Assembly (NCBI GenBank): GCA_023150835.1
Contig: JAKLKB010000006.1
Location: forward strand, 1 to 64,000
Reading direction: 5' to 3'
Source of the DNA: Myxococcota bacterium
Lineage (GTDB): Bacteria; Myxococcota_C; UBA6777
Length of the DNA stretch: 64,000 bases
The notes under the pieces are model-generated. The model did not search any database. It was not told where the DNA came from and was given only the letters and a program-made list of their open reading frames with translations. Positions 16,030 to 47,000 of this stretch are shown here, piece after piece; position 1 is the first letter of the stretch; every line of letters starts with the position of its first letter. A program made the translations under genes and the position numbers.

Positions 16030-16257
16030 ATGCGCCGCTTTTGGTGATCCTGCTTGTACATCGCCTTGTTTTTTGACGCGGTGCGTCCGTGTGTTTGTGG
16101 GGTGTACGGGAGTGTGTCTGGGGGCGAGGGAGGTGTGGTTTCGATGTTTCACACGCAGGAGTTCGTCTTTTTCCGTTTGCTTTGGCGATAGAGCGTGTGC
16201 GTGGTTTCACAAGACGCGGTCGATGCGCTTGTACGAAGAAGAGAAGGAATCAAGATC

Positions 16258-17508
16258 TTGATCAATCCAGCCGATTATAGCTTGGCCGATTTTTATTACA
16301 GTGAGACCAATGATCCGACGTGTCCGCCGCCCGAGTTTACGGCGTGGCGTGAGGCGGGAGCGTGGGCGATGTCGTTGATGGAACCTGCGTTGCACGGCCC
16401 CGCGATTCCGCGTGTTTCGATCTATCGTGCGGGACACGATCAAAAGGTGATCAACCTGTCGTCTTACAACTACATGGGGATGGCGCATCATCCTGAAGTG
16501 ATCGAAGCCGCCAAGCAAGCGTTGGATAAGTACGGTGTCGGCGCTTGTGGATCTCCGCTCTTGTCGGGGCTTTCTGATCTTCACCGTGAGTTGGAAGTGA
16601 AGCTTGCGGCGTTTTTGGGCCGCGAGGCAGTGATGCTTTACAACAGCGGTTTTGGCGCAGCGATGGGCGCTTTGGCGGGGATGTTGCGCAAGGGCGACAC
16701 GGCGATCTTGGACGCAAAGTGCCATCTTTGCGCGATGGATGGGGCTTCGCTGTCCAAAGCCAAGCGGGTGTTTTTTGATCACAACAGCGCAGCTTCTTTG
16801 GAAGAAGCGCTGTCGAAGAGCGAAGGGCAGCGGCGTTTGGTGGTGTTGGAGGGGGTGTATTCGATGGATGGCGATGTGGCGGATCTTCCGGCGTTGTTGG
16901 AAGTGACCCGTCGTCATAAAGCCAGTGTGTTCATCGACGAAGCGCACTCGCTGTTGGTGTACGGCAAGCATGGGCGCGGTGTGGCTGAGCATTTCGAGGC
17001 AGAAGCCGATATCGCGGTGATGTTTGGCACGTTCAGCAAATCTTTCGCAGGGGTGGGCGGATTTGTTGCGGCCAAAAAAGAACTGGTGGATTACCTGCGT
17101 TATTACAGCAACCCCTACGGTTTTAGCTGTGCCTTGCCGCCCTCGGTGGTTGCGGCGTTGTTGAAGGTCTTGGAGATCTTCCAACGCGACGATTCATTGC
17201 AAAAACGCCTGTGGGACAACACGCATTACTACCGTTCGCAGCTTTTGCAGATGGGGGTCAATATCGGGGAGTCGACTTCGCAAGTGGTTCCGATCGTGAT
17301 CGGCTCGAATCGTTTGTTGTTGTACCAACTCTGCCACGAGATGAACGAAAAGGGCCTGTTCTTGGCTCCTGTGGATTATCCCTCTGTTCCCGAAGGGCAG
17401 CTGCGTTTTCGCTCGGCGATCACAGCCGCCCACACCCGCGAAGATCTCGACGAAGCACTTCAGATCATCGAAGACACAGTGGTCAAACGCCTCAAAGAAC
17501 AAGGCTAA
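16258..17508 (+). CDS. Alpha-oxoamine synthase (SPT/KBL/BioF family, PLP-dependent)
   Basis: 416 residues. PLP enzymes of this family condense an acyl-CoA or acyl-ACP with an amino acid, with loss of CO2, to form an alpha-amino ketone. Visible residues are GACGSPLLSGLSDLHRELE (~96-114), His156 for ring stacking, DEAH 227-230 and the Schiff-base Lys261 in GTFSKSFAG. The N terminus (DFYYSETNDP) is more like serine palmitoyltransferases than BioF. The start TTG 16258 has AAGGA 9 nt upstream; GTG 16195 is in frame but has no RBS. It is the first gene of the beta-branching cluster, so the acyl donor is probably the cluster's ACP-bound chain. Family call is firm; substrates are inferred. Confidence 0.9.
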   Translation: MINPADYSLADFYYSETNDPTCPPPEFTAWREAGAWAMSLMEPALHGPAIPRVSIYRAGHDQKVINLSSYNYMGMAHHPEVIEAAKQALDKYGVGACGSPLLSGLSDLHRELEVKLAAFLGREAVMLYNSGFGAAMGALAGMLRKGDTAILDAKCHLCAMDGASLSKAKRVFFDHNSAASLEEALSKSEGQRRLVVLEGVYSMDGDVADLPALLEVTRRHKASVFIDEAHSLLVYGKHGRGVAEHFEAEADIAVMFGTFSKSFAGVGGFVAAKKELVDYLRYYSNPYGFSCALPPSVVAALLKVLEIFQRDDSLQKRLWDNTHYYRSQLLQMGVNIGESTSQVVPIVIGSNRLLLYQLCHEMNEKGLFLAPVDYPSVPEGQLRFRSAITAAHTREDLDEALQIIEDTVVKRLKEQG

Positions 17509-17541
17509 ACCCAACACGAAGGCCCCACAGACGCGATCGAT

Positions 17542-17682
17542 CTGCTCCAAACGCGAACGATACCGATAAACGCGGTAGGTCTGCTCCAAACGCGAACGAT
17601 ACCGATAAACGCGGTAGGTCTGCTCCAAACGCGAACGATACCGATAAACGCGGTAGGTCTGCTCCAAACGCGAACGGCTCTT
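17542..17682. repeat. 39-bp tandem repeat, about 3.6 copies
   Basis: Units begin CTGCTCCAAACGCGAACG at 17542, 17581, 17620 and 17659, the last truncated. They are nearly identical and have no spacers. They start 34 nt after the alpha-oxoamine synthase stop and fill part of the 455-nt gap before the acyltransferase. The unit is a multiple of three and open in one frame, but no gene signal surrounds it. The rest of 17683-17963 shows nothing recognisable. Confidence 0.9.
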
Positions 17683-17963
17683 CTCCATGCAAAACAGCTC
17701 TTCATCCATGCGGAAGGGGGTACGTTTTGCGGCGCATACAGTATCGCGGCACGTTTACGCCACGAGTGTTGTTTTTGTGCAACACCGAATGCGGTGGATG
17801 GGCTGTGGGGGTGCGGGTTGAGCGTGTTGTATCTTGCGGTGGTTCGGTCTTTTTGGATCGAGTCACAGTGTGGAATGTGACGTATGGCGTAGGGTTTGCT
17901 AAGGAGAGAAGAGGCTTTTTTGGAGTCGTGGTTTGTTGTGGGTGAAGAGGCGAGGTGTGTGAG

Positions 17964-18935
17964 ATGGCGATGGTATGGATGTTTCCGGGACAGAGTTCGC
18001 GCTATGCAGGGATGATCGAAAAGCTGGTGTCGTTGCATGATGCCAATCGGGTGTTGTTGGGCCGAGCATCGGAGCTTTTGAATCGGGACGTGGGGGCGTG
18101 TTATGCGTCTTCGCGCAGCGAAGAAGAGATGTTTGCGAGCAATCGCGATGTGCAGATCGGTGTTTTTCTTGCGAATCAGATGTTTTTGCAGATCTTGGAA
18201 GCGGCAGGATTGAAGGCGGATTACTCGCTTGGTTTGAGCTTGGGCGAGTGGAATCATCTGGTGCATATCGGTGCGGTTTCGTTTGATCAGGCGTTGTTGG
18301 CGGTGGAGCAGCGGGGCTTGGCGTATGATGCGGGTCCACGCGGTTCGATGGCTTCGGTGTATCCGGCGTCGGTGGAAGACTTGGAGCCGATCTTGGAGCG
18401 ATCCCGAGCTTTTGGGGTGGTCGAGGCCGTGAATCTGAACTCGCCACGCCAGCAAGTGATCTCAGGAGAGACCGCAGCTCTCGATGAAGCCGTGCGTTTG
18501 ATCGAAGAAGAATTGTTTTTGCAGCCCGTGATCATCGAGCGCCAAGTGCCGATGCACGCATCGATCTTTCGCCCCGCAGGCGAGCAGTTTCGAGCGCATC
18601 TAACCAAGATGCGATTCCAAAAGCCCGCGCTACCGTATCTTCCAAATCGTTTGGGACGCATCCAAGAATCCCCCACCCAAGAAGACTTTGTGGAACTGCT
18701 GTCTTCGCATGTGTACAGCCCTGTGCTGTGGCGGCATTCGATCGATTTTTTGGTGGAACGCCACCCGAACGCGGTGTTTGTCGAGGTGGGGCCGCGTGGT
18801 GTGCTGCATAATTTGTTGGATCGTCGGTGGCATCGAGATATCCGCAAGTTCAAGATGGATAGCGCCCAAGACACCGAAGCGCATCAACAAGAAACGATCG
18901 CAGCGCTTCGTCAATTGGCTGAAGAGACCGTGTAA
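17964..18935 (+). CDS. Malonyl-CoA:ACP acyltransferase-like protein (FabD/trans-AT type)
   Basis: 323 residues, the usual FabD length. Expected role: load malonyl (or a related acyl) from CoA onto the ACP. The FPGQ motif lies at 7-10, the nucleophile Ser92 in GLSLGE (normally GHSxGE, so the His before the Ser is Leu), Arg117 in QRG as malonyl-carboxylate binder, and His198 in the PMHAS motif. Ser-Arg-His are thus complete. ATG 17964 is taken (GTG 17955 and ATG 17970 are alternatives). Its last codons and stop are the first unit of the 29-bp tandem repeat that follows. It resembles the AT of trans-AT polyketide and HCS clusters. Confidence 0.88.
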   Translation: MAMVWMFPGQSSRYAGMIEKLVSLHDANRVLLGRASELLNRDVGACYASSRSEEEMFASNRDVQIGVFLANQMFLQILEAAGLKADYSLGLSLGEWNHLVHIGAVSFDQALLAVEQRGLAYDAGPRGSMASVYPASVEDLEPILERSRAFGVVEAVNLNSPRQQVISGETAALDEAVRLIEEELFLQPVIIERQVPMHASIFRPAGEQFRAHLTKMRFQKPALPYLPNRLGRIQESPTQEDFVELLSSHVYSPVLWRHSIDFLVERHPNAVFVEVGPRGVLHNLLDRRWHRDIRKFKMDSAQDTEAHQQETIAALRQLAEETV

Positions 18936-19080
18936 AAAGCCAATTGGCTGAAGAGACCGTGTAAAAAGTCAATTGGCTGAAGAGACCGTGTAAAAAGTCA
19001 ATTGGCTGAAGAGACCGTGTAAAAAGTCAATTGGCTGAAGAGACCGTGTAAAAAGCCAATTGGCCGAAGAGACCGTGCAA
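18911..19080. repeat. 29-bp tandem repeat copied from a gene's 3' end
   Basis: About six units of AATTGGCTGAAGAGACCGTG plus a TAAAAAG tail. Unit 1 is the last coding codons and TAA stop of the acyltransferase. Later copies differ by single bases and run up to 20 nt before the dehydratase start. Each copy carries a TAA, and the 29-nt length shifts frame each time. Only non-coding DNA was expanded. Confidence 0.93.
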
Positions 19081-19100
19081 AAAAGAAGGACAGAGATCGG

Positions 19101-19652
19101 ATGGACGTGGAGAAGTTGGTGCGTCGGATGCGGCGCAAGCGCTTGTTTGAGATCGGGGAGGGGGCCGAACAAGTGAGGCTGGGGCGCGATGCGATCAAGC
19201 AGATGATCCCGCATCGTGAGCCGTTTTTGTTGTTGGATCAGATCGATACGGTGGATCTTTCGCAGGTCGCGATGATCGCACGTCGAACGATCGATCCGAG
19301 CGATCCGATCTTGCGAGGGCATTTTCCCGGAGATCCCGTTTATCCCGGGGCTTTGTTGTTGGAGATGTTGGGGCAGGCGATGTTGTGTTTGAACCACCTC
19401 AATAACCTCGGACGGACGGCGGTTTTCCCCGAAGATCGGCCAAGACCTGTGCGTTTGATGAAGCTGTATCACGCGCTGTTTCTGGCCGAAGTTCGGCCTG
19501 ACGAAGAGATCGAGCTTTTGGTGCAAAAGATCGATGGAGGCGAATACACGTTGACTTGCGCGGGGCAGGTGTGCAAGGGTGACGCGATTTGCACCGTCAC
19601 CGTGATGGAAGTCTATCTTGTTGAGGAAGAGACGGAAAGGAGTGCGCTTTGA
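19101..19652 (+). CDS. FabZ/FabA-like hotdog 3-hydroxyacyl-ACP dehydratase
   Basis: 183 residues. The FabZ core is HREPFLLLD (38-46), then GHFPGDPVYPGALLLEMLGQ with His74 and Glu88 as the expected catalytic pair. It would dehydrate 3-hydroxyacyl-ACP to the enoyl-ACP between the ketoreductase and the enoyl reductases of this cluster. It is longer than FabZ (~150), with an N-terminal extension of about 30 basic residues. The stop overlaps the ketosynthase start, so the two are translationally coupled. Confidence 0.88.
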   Translation: MDVEKLVRRMRRKRLFEIGEGAEQVRLGRDAIKQMIPHREPFLLLDQIDTVDLSQVAMIARRTIDPSDPILRGHFPGDPVYPGALLLEMLGQAMLCLNHLNNLGRTAVFPEDRPRPVRLMKLYHALFLAEVRPDEEIELLVQKIDGGEYTLTCAGQVCKGDAICTVTVMEVYLVEEETERSAL

Positions 19653-20938
19653 GCGAGCAAAAGCGACGGGTTGTTATTACGGGCATGGCCATCAACACAA
19701 AATTAGGCGATACGCTCGACGGCTTTTATGAAAGCCTGATCGCGGGCAAGTCAGGTCTTGTGAACTGGCAATTTGTGAACACAGACGGCATCTATTCGAA
19801 AGTGGGCGGAGATTTGAGCGATTATGACGTGGACGGAAAAGCCGCAGCGCTCAAAGAGACCATGCCTACGGAAGAATGGAAACGGCTGCGCAAGCTGTTG
19901 CGCGGTGCGCCCTTTTCGACGCGATTGTCGATTCTGTGTGCTTCGGATGCTTGGTTGGATGCGGGTTTGCACAAAGCGGGCATCGATCCGACGCGAGTTT
20001 CCGCAGTTGTGAGCGGTCACAACCTCAACAAATACTACGATTATGTGATCGATCGGCAATTTGCCGAAGAGCCTGATTATATGGACCCGATGGCGTCGGT
20101 GCGTTCGTTGGATACGGATCATGCGGGTTCGGTGGCCGAAGTGTTGAATATCCAAGGCTCGATCTACACGATGGGCGGGGCGTGTGCATCGGCCAACGTC
20201 GCCTTGCGTACAGCCATCGACGAAGTGCGCCACCATGAACACGATGTGGCGCTTGTGGTGGGGGCTGCGTTGGAATTTTCGCCGATGTCGCTGCATGCGA
20301 TGGCGTTGATGGGCGCGATCTCGTTTAAGTCTTTCAACGATTGTCCCGAAAAGGCCAGTAGACCGTATGATATGGCCCGAGAGGGCTTCATTCCTTCGCA
20401 TGGTGCGGCTGTTTTGGTGGTGGAGACATTGGAACACGCCAAGGCACGGGGAGCCAAGATCTACGCCGAGGTCTTGGGCGTCGAAGCGATGTCGGACGCC
20501 AACCACTTGCCGAATCCCTCGCTGGATGGGCAAGCCCGCACGATGAATCGCTTGTTGAAAGTGACGGGTGTTTCGCCCGATAGCATCGACTACGTTTGTG
20601 CGCACGCGACGTCGACACCGCTTGGCGATTTGACGGAACTGGGTTCGATCAAAAAGGTGTTTGGTGCGCACGCTCCAAAACTCAAGATCAACGCGCCAAA
20701 GTCGATGCTTGGCCATACTTGTTGGTCGGCTCCTGCGGTGGAGACCGTTGCTGCGGTGATGCAGATGCAGCGTGGCTGGTTGCATCCTTCGATCAATATC
20801 GAAAACATCGACCCCAACGTCGACTTGCAAGTTTGCCCCAACGAACCTGTCAAACACCAGATCCGCTTGATGCTGAAAAACTCTTTTGGTTTTGGTGGGA
20901 TCAACTGCTGTAGTCTATTGAAGTTGTACGAAGATTAA
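19649..20938 (+). CDS. Beta-ketoacyl-ACP synthase (FabF-like) of the beta-branching cluster
   Basis: 429 residues, usual KAS II length. The condensing triad is complete: Cys179 in GGACASAN, His319 in CAHATSTPLGD, Lys351 and His356 in KSMLGHTC. The motif after the second His (TCWSAPAVE) replaces the common GxAGxxE pattern. It should extend acyl chains with malonyl-ACP. The decarboxylase KS of known HCS cassettes has Ser in place of Cys, which is not the case here. TTG 19649 has AAAGGAG 7 nt upstream and overlaps the stop of the dehydratase. A related family is the discrete KS of trans-AT clusters. Confidence 0.9.
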   Translation: MSEQKRRVVITGMAINTKLGDTLDGFYESLIAGKSGLVNWQFVNTDGIYSKVGGDLSDYDVDGKAAALKETMPTEEWKRLRKLLRGAPFSTRLSILCASDAWLDAGLHKAGIDPTRVSAVVSGHNLNKYYDYVIDRQFAEEPDYMDPMASVRSLDTDHAGSVAEVLNIQGSIYTMGGACASANVALRTAIDEVRHHEHDVALVVGAALEFSPMSLHAMALMGAISFKSFNDCPEKASRPYDMAREGFIPSHGAAVLVVETLEHAKARGAKIYAEVLGVEAMSDANHLPNPSLDGQARTMNRLLKVTGVSPDSIDYVCAHATSTPLGDLTELGSIKKVFGAHAPKLKINAPKSMLGHTCWSAPAVETVAAVMQMQRGWLHPSINIENIDPNVDLQVCPNEPVKHQIRLMLKNSFGFGGINCCSLLKLYED

Positions 20939-20998
20939 GGGCTTGAGCGACTTGTGGGCAAAAAAAGCCGTGTTCGCGCCATTTCAAGCGGCAACGCC

Positions 20999-21086
20999 GA
21001 TGGTTTGAAAAGCGACGATTCACCCCGCCAAAACGGGGTCAAGGGGGCGAAGACCCTTTGCGGGGTGTGGTACCTCGCCCCACAAG
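20999..21086. repeat. REP-like double-hairpin repeat, copy R4
   Basis: Begins ATGGTTTGAAAAGCGACG, then CCCCGCCAAAACGGGGTCAA, the diverged stem GGGGGCGAAGACCC and GGGGTGTGGTACCTCGCCCC. With the two MITE-like copies that follow it fills most of the 446-nt gap 20939-21384 between ketosynthase and ketoreductase. No gene was seen there. Confidence 0.65.
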
Positions 21087-21100
21087 ATCATCCAGCCGTG

Positions 21101-21213
21101 TCGTACGAAATCCGCTCGTTGTGTGATCGCAAAACGTAGGGGCAGACAGGTGTGGTTGCCCGACAATCGGGTGTCTACGCACTATCCTACGGGAACAGAT
21201 CACTCGGATATCG
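21101..21213. mobile_element. MITE-like repeat, copy A
   Basis: Non-coding element with imperfect terminal inverted repeats: left ACGAAATCCGC, right (read inward) ACGATATCCGA. Its core is a hairpin word GTAGGGGCAGACAGGTGTGG. No transposase is encoded. Copy B follows directly in the same orientation; other copies lie at 23508, 29289, 36942 and 50882. Confidence 0.75.
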
Positions 21214-21225
21214 TGTCAGTCCGAT

Positions 21226-21340
21226 AATACGAGATCCGCAGGGAGCGTGATCGTAAAACGTAGGGGCAGACAGGTGTGGCTGCCCAAGGATAGGGCGTCT
21301 GGGCGCTATCCTTCGATCATAGATCACTCGGATATCGCAT
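21226..21340. mobile_element. MITE-like repeat, copy B
   Basis: Head-to-tail neighbour of copy A, sharing AAAACGTAGGGGCAGACAGG and the end word ATCACTCGGATATCG. It ends about 45 nt before the ketoreductase start, so it separates that gene from upstream promoters and may add a hairpin to the leader. Confidence 0.75.
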
Positions 21341-21384
21341 AAGAAGTCGAAAGTTTGAAGCTTTGTGGGAGAAAAAGAAATTCA

Positions 21385-22131
21385 ATGATCTATTTTATTA
21401 CGGGCGGCTCAAGAGGTATCGGGGCGGGTGTGGTGTTGGATGCGGTGCAGCGCGGGCATGATGTGGCGTTCACCTACGTGCAAAGCGAAGAAGGAGCCGC
21501 CAAGATCGAAGAAGAGGCTCAGCGTTTGAATCCGTCGGTGCGTTGTAAAGCGTATCGTTTGGATGTGCGCAAAGCCAAAGAAGTCGAGCAGGTGGGTGAT
21601 CAGGTGCTTGCGGACTTTGACACGGTGGATGTGGTGATCAACAACGCCGGGATCAGCCGCGATCAAACGGTCGTCGGGATGTCGGATGAAGAATGGGACG
21701 ATGTGATCGCCGTCAACCTGACAGGGACGTTTTATGTCTGTCGGTTTTTCTTGATGGGGATGGTGGGGAATCGCTTTGGTCGGATCATCAACGTGTCGTC
21801 GTTGTCGGCGTATGGGGCGTCTGGACAATGCAACTACGCAGCGGCCAAAGCGGGCTTACATGGTCTGACGCAAACTATCGCTAAAGAGTACGGTCGCAAG
21901 GGCATTACAGCAAATGTCGTGGCTCCGGGTTTTTTTGAGACCGATATGACACGCGATGCTTTGCCCGAGCATATGCGGCAGTTTTGGCAAAAGTGGTCTC
22001 CCGTCCCCAAAGGTCGGATCGGAGATATCAAAGAACTGAGCGCGACGATCCACTTTTTGGCCTCGAAAGAAGCGGCGTTTGTCAACGGCCAGATCATCAA
22101 CGTGACGGGTGGGTTGGATTGGTCGCCCTGA
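21385..22131 (+). CDS. FabG-like 3-oxoacyl-ACP reductase (SDR)
   Basis: 248 residues, a classical short-chain dehydrogenase. The cofactor motif GGSRGIGAG lies at 7-15, NNAG at 86-89, and the catalytic set Asn111, Ser138, Tyr151 and Lys155 (YAAAK). It would reduce the ketosynthase product with NADPH to 3-hydroxyacyl-ACP. ATG 21385 is used; GGGAG lies 12 nt upstream, and the in-frame TTG at 21355 is unlikely. It comes directly after two MITE-like copies and 120 nt before the HCS gene. Confidence 0.9.
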   Translation: MIYFITGGSRGIGAGVVLDAVQRGHDVAFTYVQSEEGAAKIEEEAQRLNPSVRCKAYRLDVRKAKEVEQVGDQVLADFDTVDVVINNAGISRDQTVVGMSDEEWDDVIAVNLTGTFYVCRFFLMGMVGNRFGRIINVSSLSAYGASGQCNYAAAKAGLHGLTQTIAKEYGRKGITANVVAPGFFETDMTRDALPEHMRQFWQKWSPVPKGRIGDIKELSATIHFLASKEAAFVNGQIINVTGGLDWSP

Positions 22132-22146
22132 TCGCGTCTTCGTCTC

Positions 22147-22200
22147 GTCGCACGACAGGAGCCGCGTTGGGCTTGTCGCACGACAGGAGTCGTGTTGGGG
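22147..22200. repeat. Short direct repeat, 2 copies of ~28 bp
   Basis: Two copies of GTCGCACGACAGGAG plus a variable CCGCG/TCGTG and TTGGG lie in the 120-nt gap between the ketoreductase and HCS genes. Another small expansion restricted to a gene gap. Confidence 0.75.
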
Positions 22201-22251
22201 ATGGGGAGAAGTGTGAGTGTCGAAGGCGTTTTGTAGGAGAGAAGTGTAAGG

Positions 22252-23481
22252 ATGCAACGTGTAGGGATTGAAAAGATTTGGGTGTACCCCTGTTCGATGT
22301 TTTTGGATCTATCTGAACTGGCCGCTGCACGGGGATTGTCGCCAAGTTATCCGATGGAGAACTTGATGATGCGTGCGCGAGGGGTGAACCCGTGTTGGGA
22401 AGATCCCGTGACGATGGCGGTCAATGCGGCCAAGCCGATGTTGACGCAAGAAGATCGTGATTCGATCGAGTTGTTGATTGTGGGAACGGAGTCCTCGCCC
22501 GATCAAGGCAAGCCGATCAGCACCTTTGTGCATCGATTTTTGGGTCTATCGGAAAACTGCCGAAACTTTGAGACGAAGCATGCTTGTTATGGCGGGACGT
22601 GCGCGGCGATGATGGCGGCGCATTGGGTGGCGTCGGGTGCTGCGGGAGATGCGAAAGCCTTGGTGATCGCGACCGATCAGTCGCGGATGCACTTGGGTGC
22701 GCCTTGGGAGTATGTGTTGGGGGCGATCAGCGTGGCGATGTTGATCTCCAACAAGCCGAGCGTGCTGGAGTACGATCTGCGCGACAACGCGTATTGGACA
22801 AAAGAAGTGGGAGATACTTTTCGCCCGACCTCTCGCGAAGAAGCCGGAAACACCGAGCAAAGCGTCTTTTGCTACCTTGAAGCTCTCGAAGGGGCCTTTG
22901 CGCATTATCGGCGCAAGCAAGGCGGGATGGTGGATATGAATGCGCGCTTTCAGAAGCATATCTACCACGTACCGTTTTCGGGCATGGTGCAACGCGCCCA
23001 TCGCCAGATCATGCGCGATGCACACGGGATGTCTCGCAAAGAAGCGGATGCCCACTTTGATCAACGGGTGCGCGGAAGTTTGGTGTACAACTCCCAGTGT
23101 GGCGGGACATATACAGCAGCCACATTTCTTGCATTGACGGGGCTGTTGGATCAATACAGCGATTTGAACGCAGGGGATCGTATCAGCATCTTTGCGTATG
23201 GTTCGGGATCTTGTTCGGAGTTTTATTCGGGGTTTATCGGTGATCAAGCCCGTGAGCGCGTTGCAAAAGCCGATGTACAGGGCAGAATCGATGCGCGTTA
23301 TCGCCTGAGCGTCGAAGAGTACGAAGCTGTCGAGAAAGAGCGCACAAGCTACATCGATCTGCCGACCTACCAGCCGCCCAAAGAAGGATTCAACAACCAC
23401 TACAAGGCGTTTTACGAAGGCAAGGGCTATCTTGTCTTGGATGGTTTGGACGGATATTTCCGTCATTATGCGTGGAGTTGA
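22252..23481 (+). CDS. HMG-CoA synthase-like beta-branching enzyme (HCS)
   Basis: 409 residues, homologous to the HCS proteins of polyketide beta-branching (PksG/TaC/TaF type). They perform an aldol addition of acetyl-ACP to an ACP-bound beta-ketone. The HMG-CoA synthase triad is visible: Glu80 in VGTESS, Cys112 in KHACYGGT and His239 in YHVPFSGM. The C-terminal GSGSCSEFYSG matches the family. Mevalonate HMG-CoA synthase is unlikely, because ECH1, ECH2 and ACP follow in the same operon and no mevalonate gene is present. ATG 22252 with GGAGAG 10 nt upstream. Confidence 0.93.
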   Translation: MQRVGIEKIWVYPCSMFLDLSELAAARGLSPSYPMENLMMRARGVNPCWEDPVTMAVNAAKPMLTQEDRDSIELLIVGTESSPDQGKPISTFVHRFLGLSENCRNFETKHACYGGTCAAMMAAHWVASGAAGDAKALVIATDQSRMHLGAPWEYVLGAISVAMLISNKPSVLEYDLRDNAYWTKEVGDTFRPTSREEAGNTEQSVFCYLEALEGAFAHYRRKQGGMVDMNARFQKHIYHVPFSGMVQRAHRQIMRDAHGMSRKEADAHFDQRVRGSLVYNSQCGGTYTAATFLALTGLLDQYSDLNAGDRISIFAYGSGSCSEFYSGFIGDQARERVAKADVQGRIDARYRLSVEEYEAVEKERTSYIDLPTYQPPKEGFNNHYKAFYEGKGYLVLDGLDGYFRHYAWS

Positions 23482-23507
23482 CGGGCTGTGCGCTGGGTGG
23501 CCTCGTC

Positions 23508-23621
23508 ATACGATATCCGAGAGATGTATGCACAAACGAGAGTACGCGGATGCCCGATTCTTGGGCAGCCACACCTGTCTGCCCCGACCTCTTTACGATA
23601 GCGCAACAGGCCGATCTCGTA
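23508..23621. mobile_element. MITE-like repeat, copy C
   Basis: Inverted relative to A and B. It starts ATACGATATCCGA, contains TTGGGCAGCCACACCTGTCT and ends GGCCGATCTCGT. It lies between HCS and ECH1, inside the cluster, without breaking either gene. Confidence 0.75.
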
Positions 23622-23659
23622 GGAGTCCCTGAATCTTGGTGCGTGAAGGGTATGTTTTG

Positions 23660-24619
23660 ATGAGCATGGAACTTCGGTGGAGAGAGCAACAGAGAAGCGT
23701 GTGGCGTTTGCAGATGATGCCTGTGGAGGCTACACGAGCCGAGATATCGTTGGATAGTGCGGCGTTGCGGGATTGGGAACAGAAGCTCAAAGAAGCCGAA
23801 GAGGCGGAGATTCGGGTGTTGGTGATCGAGGGTGTGGGGGGGATGTTTTGTCAGGGGATGGATCTGGGGGCGCGTTTGATGGCGTATCCGCAACCTCCGA
23901 TGGGTCCGTCATCGCGAGATGAAGCGCACGAGATCGATGCGCATTATACGCCAACACCCGGGATCTTGCGTGCGCTGCACGGTCGTACTGTGTTGGATGA
24001 TGTGACGGCTGCGGCACTGCGCGACGATGTGAAGCGTTATGCGGCGTTGCTGTGGGCATTGCGACGCGCTGCATTTGCGGTGGTGGCGTTGGTGGATGGT
24101 GAGGTGATGGCGGGTGGAGTGGGCCTGATGGCGGCGGCGGATCAGGTGTTGGCGACGAAGCGATCGCGTGTGGGTTTGCCGGAGGCTTCGTTGGGCTTGT
24201 TGCCTGCGGTGGTGTTTCCTGTGTTGTGTGAGCGTGTCCCTGCACAAAAAGCCCGATGGTTGGCGATGCGCAGCGTGGGGATGGAGTCGGCAGAAGCGTT
24301 GGCGCTTGGGCTGTTTGATGCGGTTTACGAAGATGCGGAGGCTGTGGAGAAGGCAAGTCGTGAGAGTTTGCGCGCTTTGTTGCGGGCGCATCCGCAAGCG
24401 ATCGCCGATCTCAAACGCCGCACTACGGAAACGCCGAAGGCATCGCTGCAAGATGCGTTGGATGAAGCTGCGGAGTATACGGCCTCTTGTTTGATGCTTC
24501 CTGATCGTGTAGAGGGCATCCGTCGTTTCTTGCAAGGAGAGCCTTTGCCTTGGCAAGAACGCTTGCCTCGCAGAGAAGATCGTTCCCACCCATCGGATCC
24601 ATCGCGATCCTCCGAGTAG
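23660..24619 (+). CDS. Enoyl-CoA hydratase-like ECH1 dehydratase of beta-branching
   Basis: 319 residues of crotonase fold. Oxyanion-hole motifs are FCQGMDL (~63-69) and GEVMAGGVGL (147-156), with a probable acid in GLPEASLGLLPA (Glu175). In HCS cassettes ECH1 dehydrates the HMG-like ACP intermediate (PksH/TaX/CurE role). It is longer than typical ECH1 (~260), with an inserted segment around 75-130 and a Ser/Arg-rich C-terminal tail. ATG 23660 has GAAGGG 10 nt upstream. ECH2 follows after 19 nt. Assignment to ECH1 rests on order and on ECH2 being clear. Confidence 0.83.
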   Translation: MSMELRWREQQRSVWRLQMMPVEATRAEISLDSAALRDWEQKLKEAEEAEIRVLVIEGVGGMFCQGMDLGARLMAYPQPPMGPSSRDEAHEIDAHYTPTPGILRALHGRTVLDDVTAAALRDDVKRYAALLWALRRAAFAVVALVDGEVMAGGVGLMAAADQVLATKRSRVGLPEASLGLLPAVVFPVLCERVPAQKARWLAMRSVGMESAEALALGLFDAVYEDAEAVEKASRESLRALLRAHPQAIADLKRRTTETPKASLQDALDEAAEYTASCLMLPDRVEGIRRFLQGEPLPWQERLPRREDRSHPSDPSRSSE

Positions 24620-24638
24620 ACAACGCCGAAAGCACGGG

Positions 24639-25409
24639 ATGTCGAGCATGACAGAAGCTTTGATCACACTTCACTACGAAGAATCAGGGATCGTGATCTT
24701 GCAGATGCAAGATCAAGCCAAGAAAAATGCCCTTGGGACGGTCTTTGTTGAAAAGCTGACGGAGGCTTTGCATCAAGTGGCACAGCGTGCCGAAGTGCGA
24801 GTGTGCGTGTTGCGAGGACTGGAAGAGGTGTTCTGTGCAGGCGGCGATGAGGAGATGTTGTTGGCATTGGCACAGGGCAAGATCGTGGCGTCGGATATCA
24901 TGTTGTCGCGGACGATGCTCGAAGTACCGATCCCAACGATCGCAGTGATGGAAGGCCACGCTGTGGGTGGGGGTCTGACGCTTGGTTTGTGCTGCGATAT
25001 CGTGATGATGGCGCGGGAAAGTCGCTATGGCTGTAGCTTTATGAACATGGGATTTACGCCCGGGATGGGTACGACGCGCTTGTTGGCCTTGGCGGTGGGT
25101 GAGTACATCGCTGCGGAGATGATGTTGGGGGGGCAGTTTTTTCGGGGCGCGCACTTCGAGGGGCGTTCACAGATCAACTACATCTTGCCGCGTGAGCAGA
25201 TGTGGCGAAAAGCCATGCAAGTGGCCGCAGCGATCGCAGAAAAACCGCGATTTGCGTTAGAGATGCTCAAGCGCGATCTGTCGTTGAAAAAACGACGCCT
25301 CTTTGAAGAAGCCCGCACCAACGAAGTGCCGATGCACCAGTACTGCTTTGCTTTGCCCGAGACGGCTCAGCGTATCCAAGAAAACTACGTCTCCACAAAG
25401 AAACACTAG
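24639..25409 (+). CDS. Enoyl-CoA hydratase-like ECH2 decarboxylase of beta-branching
   Basis: 256 residues, crotonase fold. The segment CSFMNMGFTPGMGTTRLL (132-149) closely matches the ECH2 decarboxylase signature of PksI-type proteins (FMKYGFTPGMG). Oxyanion motifs are FCAGGDEEML and GHAVGGGLTL. ECH2 decarboxylates the glutaconyl-like ACP intermediate, leaving a beta-methyl branch. No strong RBS is seen before ATG 24639; ATG 24648 is an alternative. It is the best single marker that this is a beta-branching rather than a beta-oxidation locus. Confidence 0.92.
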   Translation: MSSMTEALITLHYEESGIVILQMQDQAKKNALGTVFVEKLTEALHQVAQRAEVRVCVLRGLEEVFCAGGDEEMLLALAQGKIVASDIMLSRTMLEVPIPTIAVMEGHAVGGGLTLGLCCDIVMMARESRYGCSFMNMGFTPGMGTTRLLALAVGEYIAAEMMLGGQFFRGAHFEGRSQINYILPREQMWRKAMQVAAAIAEKPRFALEMLKRDLSLKKRRLFEEARTNEVPMHQYCFALPETAQRIQENYVSTKKH

Positions 25410-25471
25410 CCGAAACAAAAAGATATCCGATTACAAAGATATCGGTTCTTTGCATCAGAAGGAGCTTTGGG

Positions 25472-26281
25472 ATGCGCAATGATCTTCGCGGAAAAGCGGT
25501 CTTGATCACGGGTGGAACCAAAGGGATTGGTTTTGCGATCGGTCTGGCGTTTGGAAAGTTGGGCGCACACACCTATTTGACGCATCGTTGGGGTTCGGCG
25601 GACGAAAACAAGATCCGCGAACAGTTCGCAGCAGCGGGCGCACCGACACCGCAGATCGTCGAGGCCGATGTGGTCAACGATGACGATCTCAAGCGGTTGT
25701 TGGCGCTGATCCAGCAAGATCACGAACGCATCGAAGTGTTCGTCAGCAACGTTTGCGTTGTTCAGCCTGCCAACGGCGTAGACAGCTACAAAAAACGCTC
25801 GCTGCTGCGGAGTTTGGAGTACAGCGCTTGGCCCTACGTCAACTACACCATGCAGATCAAGAAGACTTTTGGGACATATCCGCGTTATGTGGTGGGGATA
25901 TCGAGCGATGGCCCCGACAACTACTTTAGCCACTACGAATTTGTCGCCGCCTCGAAGACGGTGATGGAAACTTTTTGCCGTTATATGGCTTCTCGCCTAT
26001 ACAAAGAGGATGTGCGCTTCAATGTGATCCGCACCCGTAGCGTCCCGACCGAAGCGGTGCTGGAGATCTTTGGGGAGGATTACATCAAGTTTTTTGGAAA
26101 GTATGCCGGCGAAGAATACTTTGTCCAGCCCGAAGAGGTCGCTGATTCGGTGATCGCGCTGTGCAGCGGTATGTTGGATAGCCTCAACGGCCAGATCGTT
26201 TTGATTGACAAAGGCTCGTCTTTCGCGGATACCCTGATGCGTTTGATGGAAAAACGTCACACGTTGGGCCTGTCGTTGTAA
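25472..26281 (+). CDS. FabL/FabI-like enoyl-ACP reductase, paralogue 1 (SDR)
   Basis: 269 residues. The Rossmann motif is GGTKGIG (14-20). The active site is Tyr155-x6-Lys162 within HYEFVAASK, the spacing of FabI/FabL enoyl reductases rather than the Tyr-x3-Lys of ketoreductases. It would reduce the enoyl-ACP, perhaps the branched one made by ECH2. AAGGAG precedes the start. Paralogue 2 is two genes downstream and shares YKKRS and SLEYSAWP. The ACP gene lies between them. Confidence 0.85.
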   Translation: MRNDLRGKAVLITGGTKGIGFAIGLAFGKLGAHTYLTHRWGSADENKIREQFAAAGAPTPQIVEADVVNDDDLKRLLALIQQDHERIEVFVSNVCVVQPANGVDSYKKRSLLRSLEYSAWPYVNYTMQIKKTFGTYPRYVVGISSDGPDNYFSHYEFVAASKTVMETFCRYMASRLYKEDVRFNVIRTRSVPTEAVLEIFGEDYIKFFGKYAGEEYFVQPEEVADSVIALCSGMLDSLNGQIVLIDKGSSFADTLMRLMEKRHTLGLSL

Positions 26282-26335
26282 GCCCGCGTAGGGCGCGTGA
26301 TAAAATGGAAAAATAGAAACAAAGGAATAGGAACC

Positions 26336-26593
26336 ATGACTAAAGAAAAAATTTTCTCGATCGTGAAAAAAAACTTGCTTGATATCCTCGAAGATGCCGA
26401 TGAGAGTGCGGTCACTCCCGATAAATCGATGAAAGAACTCGGCGCAAACAGCTTGGATATCGTCGAAGTGGTGTCCACGAGCATGCGTGAATTGAAAGTC
26501 AAGATCCCCCGCTCCGAACTCAATACGCTGACCAACATCGGCCAATTGGTCGATGCGTTGTATGCCGCTGTCAACAACAAAGTGGACGCTTAA
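26336..26593 (+). CDS. Acyl carrier protein of the beta-branching cluster
   Basis: 85 residues with the phosphopantetheine Ser39 in ELGANSLDIVEVV. GANS before the carrier Ser and the following IPRSELNTLTNIGQLVDALY resemble donor ACPs of HCS cassettes (AcpK/TaB type, GANSVD) more than the housekeeping DSLD ACP; this is from memory of the families. It is the only ACP in the window, so it may serve as both donor and chain carrier. ATG 26336 has AAAGGA and AGGA upstream. It lies 54 nt after reductase 1 and 31 nt before reductase 2. Confidence 0.93.
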   Translation: MTKEKIFSIVKKNLLDILEDADESAVTPDKSMKELGANSLDIVEVVSTSMRELKVKIPRSELNTLTNIGQLVDALYAAVNNKVDA

Positions 26594-26624
26594 ATCCTTG
26601 AAACCACACCCCACCGCTCATCCG

Positions 26625-27461
26625 ATGATCAAAAATGACTTTCGTGGAAAAGCGATCTTGATCACGGGCGGCACAAAAGGCATCGGCCTTGCGATCGCGC
26701 TTGCGTTTGCACGAGAAGGGGCGCACGCTTACCTCACTTACAAGTGGGGAAGCGCGTCTCTCGACAGCATCCGCGAAACGTTCCGCAACGAAGGGCTTTT
26801 TGAGCCGATCTTGATCGAAGCCGACGCCTCGAACGAAGAAGACACCGACATGGTGCTTCGTCGCATCAAGGAAGATCACGAACACATCGAAGTGTTTGTC
26901 AGCAACGTCTCTTTTTCGCAGCTTGTATCCGATGAAAGCTCCTACAAAAAGCGCTCGTTCCTTAAAAGTTTGGAATACAGCGCGTGGCCTTTTCTCGGAT
27001 ACTCGCAAAAGATCAAGCAGACCTTCGGTCGTTATCCGCACTATATCCTCGGAACATCGAGCTTTGGCGTCGATACCTACTACATCCAGTACGACTTTGT
27101 CGCTGCTTCAAAAGCTGTGATGGAGACTTTTTGTCGATACATGGGCAAGCATCTTCTCAACGAAGGTGTGCGAGTCAACATCTTGCGCTCGCGCCCTGTC
27201 GCCACCGATTCACTTCGGGCCACTTTCGGCGAAGGCTACGAAGCTTTTGCAAAAAAGCATTTTGGTGAAGAGGCGTTTGTCACCGTCGAGGAAGTCGGCG
27301 AAGCAGCTCTGGCGATGTGCAGCGGCCTGATGGACGCCATGACCGGACAAGTCCTAATGATCGATCACGGCGTCACCTTCCACGACAACATCCAGTACAT
27401 GTTTGAACATCGCGATGAGATGGGCTTTGAGGCGCTTCTTGCCGAAGTCGAAAACAAATAA
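26625..27461 (+). CDS. FabL/FabI-like enoyl-ACP reductase, paralogue 2 (SDR)
   Basis: 278 residues, close in sequence to the reductase at 25472. It has GGTKGIG, the shared YKKRS and SLEYSAWP segments and a Tyr-x6-Lys site in QYDFVAASK. The differing residues beside the active site (TSSFGVDTYYI instead of ISSDGPDNYFS) suggest a different substrate. The start is uncertain: ATG 26625 has no clear RBS, and TTG 26598 is possible. It is the last gene of the cluster and is followed at once by tandem repeats and a convergent gene. Confidence 0.85.
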   Translation: MIKNDFRGKAILITGGTKGIGLAIALAFAREGAHAYLTYKWGSASLDSIRETFRNEGLFEPILIEADASNEEDTDMVLRRIKEDHEHIEVFVSNVSFSQLVSDESSYKKRSFLKSLEYSAWPFLGYSQKIKQTFGRYPHYILGTSSFGVDTYYIQYDFVAASKAVMETFCRYMGKHLLNEGVRVNILRSRPVATDSLRATFGEGYEAFAKKHFGEEAFVTVEEVGEAALAMCSGLMDAMTGQVLMIDHGVTFHDNIQYMFEHRDEMGFEALLAEVENK

Positions 27462-27537
27462 GTCCACGGAAAACACGGAAAACACGGAAAGGGGCAGGAA
27501 AGGGGCAGGAAAGGGGCAGGAAAGGGGCAGGAAAGGG
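27462..27537. repeat. CACGGAAAA and AAAGGGGCAGG tandem repeats
   Basis: Directly after the reductase stop comes GTCCACGGAAAACACGGAAA, a short run of the CACGGA family also found at 32985 and 33829. Then come about five 11-bp AAAGGGGCAGG units up to 27537. They separate the convergent cluster end and the 27541 gene; no terminator hairpin was seen. Confidence 0.85.
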
Positions 27538-41091: not shown

Positions 41092-44000
41092 ATGCTTCGA
41101 GGGTGGAGTGTAGGGATATGGGGGTTGGTGGGATGGTTGTTGTGCGGCGTGGCGTGGGGGCAAGAAGAGGATTGGAAGTTGCGGGATCGGGATCGGCGGC
41201 AGAAACAGATCTTGAGGCGTTTTCAAGAGATCGTGGAGAAGAAGCCTGATCGGGGTTTTGCGTTTCAGCGGATGGTGGAGGTGGGTCGTCGTTGGCCGGG
41301 GCTGGATCGTTTGGTGGCGGAGTATCGGAAGAAAGTGAAGGCATCGCCGCGTCGGTTGGCGTATTCGTTGATCTTGGGGCATTTGTTGGATCACACGGGG
41401 CAGCGGGAAGGTGCGTTGCGTGCGTACGAGCAGGCGTTGCGGCTGGATCCGCAAAATGCGATGGCGTTGCAGTACAAAGCGGCGATCTTACAGAAGTTGC
41501 AACGTTATGAGGAAGCGATCAAGGCGTATGAGACAGCGTTGGGTGTGTTTAAGGACGCGGAGAGGAAGCGGCGAGCGTACAAGGCATTGGGGACGTTGTG
41601 GTTGTTGAGGAAGCAGCCGAAGAAAGCGTTGGGGTATTGGAAGCAATTTTTGCAGATGAGTCCGAACAACTTGTTGGCGCGGGAAGAGTTGGCGCGGGAG
41701 ATGGGGCGGAACAAGTTGTACGAAGAGGCGTTGTTGCAGTGGAAGGAGGTGTTAAAGCGCCGAGGGGGAGGAGTGGCGCGAGCGGGGGTGTTGCGGCAGA
41801 TGGGGGGATTGTACGAAGAGATGGGGAAGTGGCCAGAGGCGGTGGGGGTGTATCGTCAAGCGATGGTGTTGACGCAAGAGAGTCATTGGTTGAGGAGAGA
41901 GTTGAGTGCGCGGGTGTTGCAGTTGCATCGGGAGAATGGGAAGTTGGCGGAGCTTGCGGGGTACTTGCAGCAGCAGAAGCGCAAGTCGGCATCGGACTTG
42001 TCGGCGTTGGCGCAGTTGTATGACGAGATGGGGAGGGACAAGGAAGCGCGGGAGATGTATGCGAAGGCATTGTTGGCGAACTCACGGGATTCGCGGTTGC
42101 GTTTGCGGTACATCACGTTGTTGGAGGTGGGAGGAGATGTGGCGGAGGGGGTGAAGCAGTATCGGTTGTTGATCCGCAATGAGTCGTCGGAGCCGCGTTA
42201 TCGGATGGCGTTTGCGGAGATGTTATCAAGGGCGGGTAAGCAGAAGGAATCGTTGGCGGAGATGGCGGAGGTGGCGCGGAGATTTTCGCGCAATACGGAG
42301 ATCTTGTCGCGGTTGGCGGCGCTGTATCGGCGGCGTCGGATGCACAAAGAGGCGAACGCGTTGTTGCGGCGTTTGATTGCGGTGGATCCGAGGGATCCGG
42401 CGCATCGCAATGCGTTGGGGACGTATCATTTTGAGTTGGGACAAAAAGGACAAGCGCAGACGATCTGGAGGGGGATCTTGCGCAGTGGTTTGGGTACAGC
42501 GGCGGCGTATACGGCATTGGGGCAGATCTATCGGAGCCACAATCTGGATCGGGATGCGTTGGAGGCGTTTCGGAAGGCAGCGCGTGCGGCTGCGAAAGAT
42601 CCGAATGTGTTGCGCAATTTGGGAGAGATGTTTCGTCGTTTGTTGGAGGAGGAGGGGGATCTCAAGGCGAAGGAACTGCAAGAAGCGATCGAGGTGTGGA
42701 AAAAGATTCATTTGTTGGCGAAGCTGCGTCCCGCGAAAAAAGAGGCGTTGCGGCAATTGTTTGCGTTGTATCATGCGCAAGGGACGTCGTATCGGCTGCC
42801 TGTGGAGTATCGACAACGGCTGCGCAAACGCCCAAGCGATATAGAAGCGTTGCGGCTTTTGGGGGAATATTATTTGTGGTTGGCACGCAAGGAGCGGCGG
42901 GATCATGCGCAGGCGCGGCGTTATTTTGAGCGGATCTTGGATTTTCAAAAAGATGATATCGATGCGATCTTGACGTTGGAAGATCTGGAGGCGCGTCAGA
43001 GCCGATGGTATCTGGCGAAGCGTTATTTGTTGCGAGCGGTGGAAGTGGATAAGAAGGGGAGGAGGACGTATTATCGGCGTTTGTATGAGTACAGCTTGAA
43101 GCTGCGTCAGTACCAAGACGCGATCCAGTATGCGCGTCGGGTGGTCGAGTTGTATCCAGACGATGCGACGGCCCATGCGGAGTTGGCGCGGGTGTATCGA
43201 AAGGTGGGACGGGCGCAAGAGGCGGTGGGAGCGTACCAAGAGGCGTTGCGCTTGCAGCCACACAATCATGGATACCATCAAACGCTCGGGCATTTGTATC
43301 GCGATATGGGGCAAACGGACCAAGCGATCGAGCGTTACAACTTTGTGTTGAAGCACGCGAAAGAAGGGAACCTGATCTACGATGCGGCCATGCAGATCAT
43401 GGGATTGCGCACGTTGGCCCCAAAGAACGATGTGTTGGAAGTGACGTTGCAGACGCTGTCTGAGCAGAATCCAAGGGAGCTTGCGTACTTTCGGGCGTTA
43501 GCGGAGTTGTACCAGCGGCAGGGGCGGATGAAAGAATACCGCGTGGCGTATTTGAAGGCGGCGTCGTCGGTGGATGACAAGTCGCAGGTGTACAAGAAGT
43601 TGGCGGAAGCAGCGACGGAACAGGGCGATTTGAAGAAGGCGATCATCTATTACCGCAAGATGCTTGAAGAGACGCCGAACCCGCAGCCCGATCAACAGAT
43701 GCACTTGGCGCGGTTGTCTTTTCAGGTGGGTGATCAAGTTGGGGCGCGCAAGCTGCTGTTCTCGATCTTGACGGAGAATCCGAACTCTGCGCGGATCTTG
43801 CGCCAAGTTGGAGAGCTGTTCGATCGCCATCAGTTGGCGGAGGACGCGATCTATAGCTACGAGTTGTTTTTGGAGCTGCAGCCGATGGAGTCGGCGGTAC
43901 GAGTGCGGCTGGCGGAGCTTTATTTGCAGAAGCAGATGAACGAGCCCGCGATGGGCTTGTTGGAGTCGGTGTTTTGGCAAGAAGAAGAAAAAGCGTTACG

Positions 44001-47000
44001 CAGCGTGGCGAAGAAGACGAGCAAACCCAAAAAAGCCAATTCTCCGACACCATCGAGGGCGTATGGTCGGTCGATACGTCATCGTCCGATACATCTGTCC
44101 TCGTCTTATTATGCGCGTCGGATGCGTTATATGCGGCTGTATCAGTCGAGGCCGCAACGGATACAGGCGTTGGGCTTGTTGTTGGAGTTGTACGCGAAGG
44201 CGGGTAAGTTGGAGGAGTGGGATCGTCGGGTGGAGCTGCATTTGCGGTATGGATGGCAGGACACCGGAACGTTTCTGCGTTATGAGCAGACGATGTTGTT
44301 GGAGTTTTTGGCTGCGGCGTATCGAGAGCGCGGTTGGGACGAGCGTTTGCGCAAGATGTATGAGGTGATGCACGAAGCGGATCCGCAAAATGCGCGATGG
44401 TCGCAAGAGTTGGCAAAGCTGTATATTGATCAGGGGTTGCATGAAAAGGCAAAAGCGCTGATGTTTGGGATCCATCGGGGAGGGGTTCAAGATATCCAGA
44501 TGATGTTGGCGCGGGTGCGATTGTTGGTGCAGTTGCGAGAAGAAGAGCAATTGACGTTTCAGTTGCGAAGCTTGTTGTACGGGAGTTATACGCGAAACCA
44601 CCACTATATGCTGCAAGTGTTGCAGGAGTTGCGAAAACTACCGAACACACGGTTGTATGAGATGTTTTTGCGGGGCTTGTTGCAGACGGGGGTTGCGTAT
44701 TATCGGGAGGCGTACCAGCAGATGTTGGTAAGCGTCTATTTGCAATCGGGAAAACAAGATCTTGCGCAAAAGATGTTGATGGCGCGATGGAAGGGGGGGT
44801 TGTCACGTGCGCCGCTCAAGCAGATGGAGACGGATCGGTTGGGGACAGCGCGTTTGTTGTGGCCGTTGTTGTCGTCGAAAGAGCAAGAAAAGCTGTTGCA
44901 GGATGCGGAACAAGGGGTGACGGATGCTTTGTTGGGTGGAGATCCAGAGAAGATTCGGCAGGCTTTGGTGACGGCGCGAGCAGCGGTGTGGGTGGGGCGG
45001 GGTCAGGATGCGGCGCAAGCCTATCTTCCGGCGATGTGGAGTGTGGGGACCAAGTACCAAGACGGCCCATTTTTGCGGGGCGTGTTGTCCGATCTGTTGC
45101 GGGAACGGCAGGATATCCACGCGCTGAAGTTGATCAAGCAAGAGATGGCGGAACAGACGACGCCGCATACAGAGATGGGGTATCTGTACAGCGTGTTGAC
45201 GCATTTGTCTTCGAGGGGGGGGACGCCAGAGGCGAGTTTGGGGCGATATCTGGAGAAGGCATTGCGGCGTTTGCACCCGAGAAGTCGGAGGCCAAGCGTG
45301 ATCAGGCGTGGGGCTGTGGCGATCAACTCGATGTTAGAGAAGAGGGCATGGTTGGCGTTGGCGTTGCGATTGGGAGAGGTGTATTTGAAGGGGGGCGATC
45401 CGAAGCGGGGGATCTGGTGGTTGGAGGCTTGTCGTTGGTTGGACAGCGAGCAGGCACAAGAACCCGCGTTGTTGAATCTGCTGTACGAGGCATACCAAGA
45501 ACAGGGGATGAACGAAACGGCGGCGCGTTATCGGGAGAAGACGCGCCAAGCGATCGGCGAGATCTTGTTGCGGGATCTGAAGGGGTGGGAGCTGTATTTG
45601 GGGCTAGGTGCGGAGCGGGACAAGGCGCTATTTTCGCATATTTGGTTGTATCTACGGAATTCTCCGACGATGTACACGGCACGTTATCAGTTACAGCGCC
45701 CAAGTCAGATGTTGCGTTATCAGATCCAAGGGATTCAACGGATGTCGTTGTTGGAGAGTTACAAGGTGCGGATCGCGCCGTTGGCTGCGTTGTACAGCCC
45801 GTCAGGTGAGATCCAAAAGCTGGTGGATTTGCTCAAGGCACGCCGAGAGCGGGTGGTGGATGGCGAAACGAAGCGGATGTTGTCGTTGTATGTGATGGGT
45901 GCGTATCTGTGGGATTGGGAGACGCGTTCGACACCGAGTTCATTGAAGGAGTTGTTGGCGAGGATGGATGGGCTGCGCAAGATGCCGCACAGTCCGCAAG
46001 AACGATTTCATTTGGGATTGTGGCATGGGAGGTTGTTGGGTGAGATGCAACAGCCGAAGCAGGCGCTTGCGGTGTATCGTGAGTTGTTGACGGGCGCGTC
46101 GCCAGCCCAAGAGCGGCAGGTGTTGTTGCAGATCGCGGAACATGCGAACCAAGCCTCGGAGGAAGACCAAGAGAAAGCTGCGCATGTGCAGCTTGCGCGC
46201 AAGCACAACGAGCCGAATTCGTATCGTGTGCTTGCACAAAAGGCGTTGGAGGCGAAGCAGATCGGGGAGGCGGTGCGGTATTTTCGGGGGTATATGAAGG
46301 GGCATTTGACGTTGCCGCAGTATCGGAGCTTATCGGGCCACTTGAAGAAGGCGGAACAAGAGATCCAGCTCGCGCAATTTTTGTTGGGTGTGGATACGGG
46401 CGATCGCGTGGTGTTTCATTTGTTGCGGGCGATCGATGCGATGCGTTTGGAACGAAACCGCGAGAGCTACTTGTTTTCGATGCGGATGCAGCAGACTTTG
46501 CGCACACTTCAACAAGCGGGGCGGCTTGAGCAGCAAGTGGAGGCGTGGGAAAAGACGCGCAAAGAGACGCAAGTGGATGATCCATACCAGATGATGTTGT
46601 TGTCGCAGGCGTACGGATACTTGGGGAAAAAACAGAAGCGTTTTGAGGTGTTGACAGCATGGCTGTATGTGCAACCGTATGAGCAAGCGCTGTTTCGGCG
46701 TTGGAAGGTGTCGTTTGAGCACGATGCTTTGGAGGGAGAGCAGCAAAAGATATTGGAACGACTGCGCGTTTTGTATGCGCCACCCAAGCCCAAGCCGGGG
46801 GGATACGATCTATTTTTTGGGGATATCGCTTTTCGCAAAAAGCGGCCAGCCGAGGCGTTGGTGTCGTGGAAGTTGGCAGCGAAAGAGTGTTCGAGTACGG
46901 CGGCTTTGTTTTCTGCGGCTGCTTCGCCGTATCGCAGGAATACGTTTTATGCGCGGTCTGCATGTGTCCAACGGGTCTGCCAGTCGATGTTGAAGGCGGG

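Follow-up and report, generated by a model that had tools for sequence, protein, structure and literature searches.

The window analyzed here is a stretch of 64,000 nucleotides from a Myxococcota bacterium (7.56-Mb assembly; nearest relative in the genome collection, the Myxococcota MAG KLAP109). Between positions 16258 and 27461 it carries eleven open reading frames (ORFs), all on the + strand, in the order AOS, AT, DH, KS, KR, HCS, ECH1, ECH2, SDR1, ACP, SDR2. NCBIfam and Pfam labels agree for all eleven, upholding the co-directional genes and functions proposed in the initial annotation, and the residues quoted there (AOS K261; KS C179/H319/H356; HCS E80/C112/H239; ECH2 FMNMGFTPGMG) were reproduced exactly on recomputation. 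The first gene (16258..17508, +) encodes a PLP-dependent alpha-oxoamine synthase (AOS) of 416 aa (PF00155; best NCBIfam model TIGR01825 at 356 bits, under its cut-off). It is followed by a discrete malonyl-type acyltransferase (AT; 17955..18935, +; PF00698, FabD-like; Ser95, Arg120 and His201, numbered from 17955), a FabZ-like hot-dog dehydratase (DH; 19101..19652, +; PF07977, NF000582; His74), a ketosynthase with active-site Cys179 (KS; 19649..20938, +; NF005490, 352 bits) and a FabG-like ketoreductase (KR; 21355..22131, +; TIGR01830, 255 bits). Then come an HMG-ACP synthase of the polyketide beta-branching type (HCS; 22252..23481, +; best PDB matches CurD and PksG), a PksH-like HMG-ACP dehydratase with an insertion at approximately residues 75-120 (ECH1; 23660..24619, +; NF005498) and a PksI-like methylglutaconyl-ACP decarboxylase (ECH2; 24639..25409, +; NF005496, 286 bits against a cut-off of 215). 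An enoyl-ACP reductase-like SDR (SDR1; 25472..26281, +; Y-x6-K with Y155; FabL among the best named models, with enoyl-ACP reductases as PDB matches) and a second enoyl reductase-like SDR with the same motif (SDR2; 26625..27461, +; PF13561; 52% identical to SDR1) flank a single carrier protein with the motif GANS39LD (ACP; 26336..26593, +).

Start codons are uncertain for AOS and ECH1, a GTG at 16195 being possible for AOS. The gap between AOS and AT measures 450 bp and includes a tandem repeat, that between AT and DH measures 165 bp and holds another, and the KS-KR gap of ~420 bp contains no called gene; despite these gaps and repeats, a single transcript is likely for the cassette. Intergenic tandem repeats in or just after the cassette lie at 17541-17676, 18910-19083 and 27486-27537 (units of 39, 29 and 11 bp, respectively); the 29-bp units copy the end of the AT gene, and further arrays occur elsewhere in the window. 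As claimed in the initial annotation, modular PKS and NRPS genes appear to be absent: the 91.8-kb contig containing the window yielded neither a further ketosynthase nor an NRPS condensation domain. An ORF of 3238 aa at 41128-50841 has TPR-type matches and is not a megasynthase. On contig C39 of genome G000, two ORFs (2602 and 2334 aa) contain several KS domains and possibly encode a PUFA-type synthase. Another FabF/FabG/FabD/FabZ-like set lies on contig C160 of the window's genome.

Scanning one genome per species with an enoyl-reductase (SDR) alignment recovered 77 related loci, spanning Myxococcota, Spirochaetota, Aminicenantes, FCPU426, Chlamydiota, Bacteroidota and Pseudomonadota and including cultured bearers (Nannocystis, Plesiocystis, Enhygromyxa, Rubrivivax and Asticcacaulis). 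A sample of 381 genomes from beyond the window's own family gave only three weak marker matches (E ~1e-32), and a scan of viral contigs with the same alignment gave no match. Most related loci lie in unannotated MAGs; gene orders were determined by tblastn and a purpose-written simple codon-usage gene caller. Of the two main layouts, one, AOS-AT-DH-KS-KR-HCS-ECH1-ECH2-SDR-SDR-ACP, is found in Nannocystis and relatives, and the other, KS-KR-HCS-ECH1-ECH2-SDR-ACP-AOS-DH, in Spirochaetota, Aminicenantes and FCPU426. In a sister genus (G002, G004), ten of the genes are present with their order unchanged, with identities of 47-70% for nine of the ten common genes (39-40% for ECH1), an MBL-fold hydrolase at the end and no adjacent AOS. 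Retention of gene order in the sister genus and in loci of several phyla is far beyond chance. Among HCS-positive loci classed as untruncated (not cut within 600 bp of the cassette; n = 36), AOS was found at 30 and was locally absent from six, DH was found in 35 and AT in 24. The modular PKS that the initial annotation had named as evidence against its own reading was not seen in the flanks of HCS-positive loci (up to ~10 kb on each side). ORFs of >850 aa do occur in these loci (two in L061 and others in L066, L069, L086, L090 and L095), none of them matching the KS query.

Neighboring genes were annotated from scored representatives rather than at every locus. At L104 and L085, Pfam identified PPTases, and homologues connected to these by BLAST lie near other cassettes. 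The neighbor of AOS in L065 is an epimerase-like SDR, which has relatives beside Nannocystis cassettes, and in L089 AOS is followed by a desaturase, a thioester-reductase-like protein and an SDR. L068, L075 and L089 have a conserved protein of ~160 aa placed between SDR and either AT or AOS; the L075 copy has no Pfam match.

Against PDB sequences, the cassette HCS scored 267-259 bits with CurD/PksG, compared to 185 bits with the best bacterial mevalonate-type HMG-CoA synthase. The mevalonate-type HCS of the same genome (contig C113) passes TIGR01835 (366 bits, cut-off 360) and the cassette HCS falls below it (276 bits). Mevalonate-type copies of this family split off at 100/100 in a 54-row HCS tree with CurD at the base of that split; row L005 was misframed, and only starred groups away from that row were used. 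Judged from these comparisons, the cassette HCS is of the polyketide type and distinct from the mevalonate HCS of the same genome, so the grouping with mevalonate HMG-CoA synthases that had been set out beforehand as an objection did not materialize. The HCS residues E, C and H are present in all 48 aligned rows (one being the CurD reference), Asp and Glu are conserved among cassette ECH1s at a 93% threshold, and the catalytic His of ECH2 is kept in 58 of 60 aligned rows (one being PksI). Activity of PksH depends on Glu137 with a contribution from Asp68, and D68 and E175 of the window ECH1 correspond to the motifs of these catalytic residues (PMC7501309). In ECH2, the signature FMNMGFTPGMG occupies residues 134-144, and His233 aligns with His230 of PksI, the only residue required there, a K80A mutant of PksI being active (PMC7501309); the idea that ECH2 is inactive for want of the Lys80 position was dropped on that account.

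Loss of the trio was considered for L042, L045 and L046 and was dropped for L042 and L046, whose genomes hold a contiguous HCS-ECH1-ECH2 trio on another contig; in the L045 genome, an HCS lies at a contig edge elsewhere. HCS gave no match in the genomes of L080, L101, L108, L112 and L115, whose loci keep SDR-ACP-AOS. The KS of L101 is part of a large protein annotated as AMP-binding, PP-binding and KS, and L080, L108 and L115 match this AMP-ligase-ACP-KS protein over 1144-1168 residues at 55-58%; L112, in which the ORF starts at the contig edge, matches only its KS end, and the large ORF of the HCS-positive locus L095 matches its AMP-ligase-ACP part. The five HCS-less loci appear to hold an unbranched version of this pathway that starts from activated fatty acids. 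Given a separate trio in two genomes and HCS-less SDR-ACP-AOS operons in five, HCS-ECH1-ECH2 behaves as a module, and it looks like an add-on to an AOS pathway. At L048 (8738-10804), an SDR comes directly after HCS, and ECH1 and ECH2 were not detected at the locus.

Decarboxylating KSs of HCS cassettes carry a Cys-to-Ser change. The KS of the window, with Cys-His-His, is not of this decarboxylating, non-elongating kind; it is the only KS and keeps its Cys, so it should elongate, unlike the textbook cassette KS. The KS alignment has 69 rows, among them the second KSs found in Spirochaetota-type loci and the KS portions of large fusion proteins, so that rows are not a count of cassettes. Of these rows, 68 have the Cys, 68 the first His and 67 the second His (two gaps); the sole exception at the Cys is L117, a truncated gene call of 262 aa. 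The second KS of many spirochaete-type loci was also considered as a chain-length factor and rejected: that of L070, the one scored, passes a FabF model, and every KS row apart from the truncated L117 call has the Cys. A single ACP motif was found in any + frame between 15.9 and 28.0 kb. The Ser, Arg and His positions of AT are conserved in 31 cassette ATs at a 93% threshold, and Y-x6-K occurs in all 111 aligned cassette SDRs. In L062, L063 and L069, SDR1 and SDR2 were called as a single ORF of 566-577 aa, suggesting joint action of the two enoyl reductases. With KR and DH beside HCS almost everywhere, plain reduction cycles are expected in addition to branched ones.

The window AOS belongs to the alpha-oxoamine synthase superfamily, with the PLP Lys (K261) and the stacking His (H156) in place and 168 bits to PF00155. 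It reaches no curated family cut-off in NCBIfam: scores against serine palmitoyltransferase (SPT) models were 323, 310 and 252 bits (cut-offs of 640, 500 and 670), so that an assignment as SPT was not adopted, and the score against NF005526 (CqsA/LqsA alpha-hydroxyketone autoinducer synthase) was 194 bits (cut-off of 428). A 35-row AOS tree included SPT, KBL and ThAOS references. In it, the majority of cassette AOSs, the window AOS among them, formed one clade (98/97) apart from 3a2b, the single reference by which SPT was represented, and this clade joined a Bacteroidota and Alphaproteobacteria group (100/98). The AOSs of L046, L055, L059 and L065 fell outside the main clade and grouped with AOS-SDR fusions of the window's own family. 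This tree was rebuilt without the misframed row L033, and the first AOS tree was used only for starred groups away from that row. Two well-separated AOS lineages occur in cassettes, or three when the Bacteroidota group is treated as separate. The AOS-SDR fusions in the window's family, at G002:C443 (L142) and G003:C59 (L143), are possibly an SPT joined to a keto-reductase.

Taken together, the eleven genes probably encode a stand-alone type II fatty-acid/polyketide synthase that works iteratively, with a beta-branching module and amino-acid-dependent release by AOS. Malonyl would be loaded by AT onto the single ACP and the chain elongated by the Cys-type KS, with KR, DH and the enoyl reductases giving a saturated chain in ordinary cycles. 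In at least one cycle, HCS would instead add acetate to the beta-ketone, after which ECH1 would dehydrate and ECH2 decarboxylate the intermediate to a beta-methyl enoyl-ACP that an enoyl reductase could saturate. Finally, AOS would join the branched acyl-ACP to an amino acid in a decarboxylating condensation that yields an alpha-amino ketone, and the final product would most simply be a branched sphingoid-like base. Gene content, intact catalytic residues, conserved order and repeated association with AOS can be read from the DNA alone; we infer iteration, where the branch sits, that AOS takes an acyl-ACP, which amino acid it uses and what is finally made. Arguing for this synthase are the order conserved across phyla, the AOS at most untruncated loci and its more than one lineage, the flanks free of modular PKSs, the conserved catalytic residues, the polyketide-type HCS, the modular trio and the PPTases near cassettes. 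Counting against it, the cassette offers neither a Ser-type decarboxylating KS nor a second ACP as acetyl donor for HCS, intergenic repeats break up the window operon, and the AOS lies below every curated cut-off. The discrete, non-modular beta-branching system with an AOS of the initial annotation stands, and the sphingoid or sulfonolipid-type base suggested there is a possible product. The AOS is a frequent rather than an invariant partner; the sister genus has an MBL-fold hydrolase in place of an adjacent AOS, so AOS release is not universal.

The AOS could be a true serine palmitoyltransferase, its product an ordinary sphingolipid base with a methyl branch. We lean against this view while holding it possible: the window AOS scores 265 bits with the Sphingobacterium SPT (3a2b) and has DAHSL, TFSKS and a Ser at residue 99 in common with it, but that Ser position is Ala in many cassettes, bit scores are alike against ThAOS, SPT and KBL, and neither the SPT cut-offs nor the position outside the SPT reference in the tree favors it. 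A KDSR-like SDR after ACP in L047 also fits a sphingolipid route, as does a FemAB_like gene (PF04339) in the window's genome, from the family of bacterial ceramide synthase, although PF04339 is non-specific.

A branched acyl chain with several fates (free acid, aldehyde or membrane-lipid acyl donor), with AOS as just one member of an exchangeable set of release enzymes and with the branched acid rather than the amino-ketone as the conserved output, would account for the hydrolase beside the sister-genus cassette, for the thioester-reductase-like proteins after ACP in L075 and after AOS and the desaturase in L089, and for the six loci that lack a local AOS. We consider it unlikely given AOS at the other 30 and AOSs of more than one lineage in cassettes; moreover, genomes without a local AOS have AOS-family genes elsewhere, as with the AOS-SDR fusion of G002. 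Doubtful to a like degree is a trio acting once, at the start, to turn acetoacetyl-ACP via 3-methylcrotonyl- into isovaleryl-ACP and so provide an iso-branched chain without leucine degradation. All of the chemistry required is present, and iso-branched chains are common in bacterial lipids, but nothing points to an acetyl starter, and the HCS-less relatives that load their chain via the AMP-ligase-ACP-KS protein suggest a fatty-acid start in some cassettes. A merely coincidental AOS beside the window cassette is already disfavored and very improbable, since in most loci, across several phyla, AOS lies next to ACP, AT or DH, even though 450 bp with a tandem repeat separate it from AT here and the sister genus has no adjacent AOS.

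The branching synthase with AOS release that we prefer combines features of several known systems. HCS cassettes of modular PKSs (PksF-AcpK-PksG-PksH-PksI of bacillaene; CurD-E-F) have the same HCS, ECH1 and ECH2 catalytic residues (PMC7501309, PMC9582728), and the nearest models of the window KS and ACP are of the corresponding types (PRK07103, PksF type; PRK07117, AcpK type, NF005502 at 69 bits, below the cut-off of 79). The cassette KS of modular systems is a decarboxylating enzyme (PMC9582728), and the window set differs further in having no modular PKS and in having its own KR, DH, enoyl reductases, AT and AOS. PfSgaAB, a bacterial system for sphingolipids, likewise pairs an iterative chain builder (a type I PKS) with an AOS, which yields a 3-keto sphingoid base. 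SgaA is a single type I protein of several domains, whereas every function in the window is on a discrete ORF, and the parts of that account drawn on here describe no HCS cassette (PMC12134224). In the AasR-AcpR-SPT system of Proteobacteria such as Caulobacter, a dedicated ACP hands the acyl chain to an AOS-family enzyme, as proposed here, although that chain comes from primary fatty-acid synthesis via an acyl-ACP synthetase (PMC9386255), and in the window it is predicted to be built and branched on site. Discrete AT, KS, KR, DH, ER and ACP are shared with type II fatty-acid synthase, to which the window adds HCS-ECH1-ECH2 and AOS. No description of an HCS cassette joined with an AOS, nor of a pathway with this exact set, was found in the open literature searched, in line with the initial annotation.

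Beta-branching has been described so far mainly from modular PKSs, to which HCS cassettes are described as accessories. We tentatively propose, at rather less than even confidence, a broadly distributed type II synthase that works iteratively and uses a single KS and a single ACP for ordinary elongation as well as for HCS beta-branching. Its products would be sphingoid-like amino lipids with multiple methyl branches or with branches at programmed positions, in bacteria without known lipids of this kind. A small, discrete and genetically separable HCS set would be a simple model for the timing of beta-branching and for the way in which one ACP can act as both acceptor and donor. If the AOS product is as predicted, these loci would represent an additional route to branched amino lipids in several phyla, cultured bearers included.
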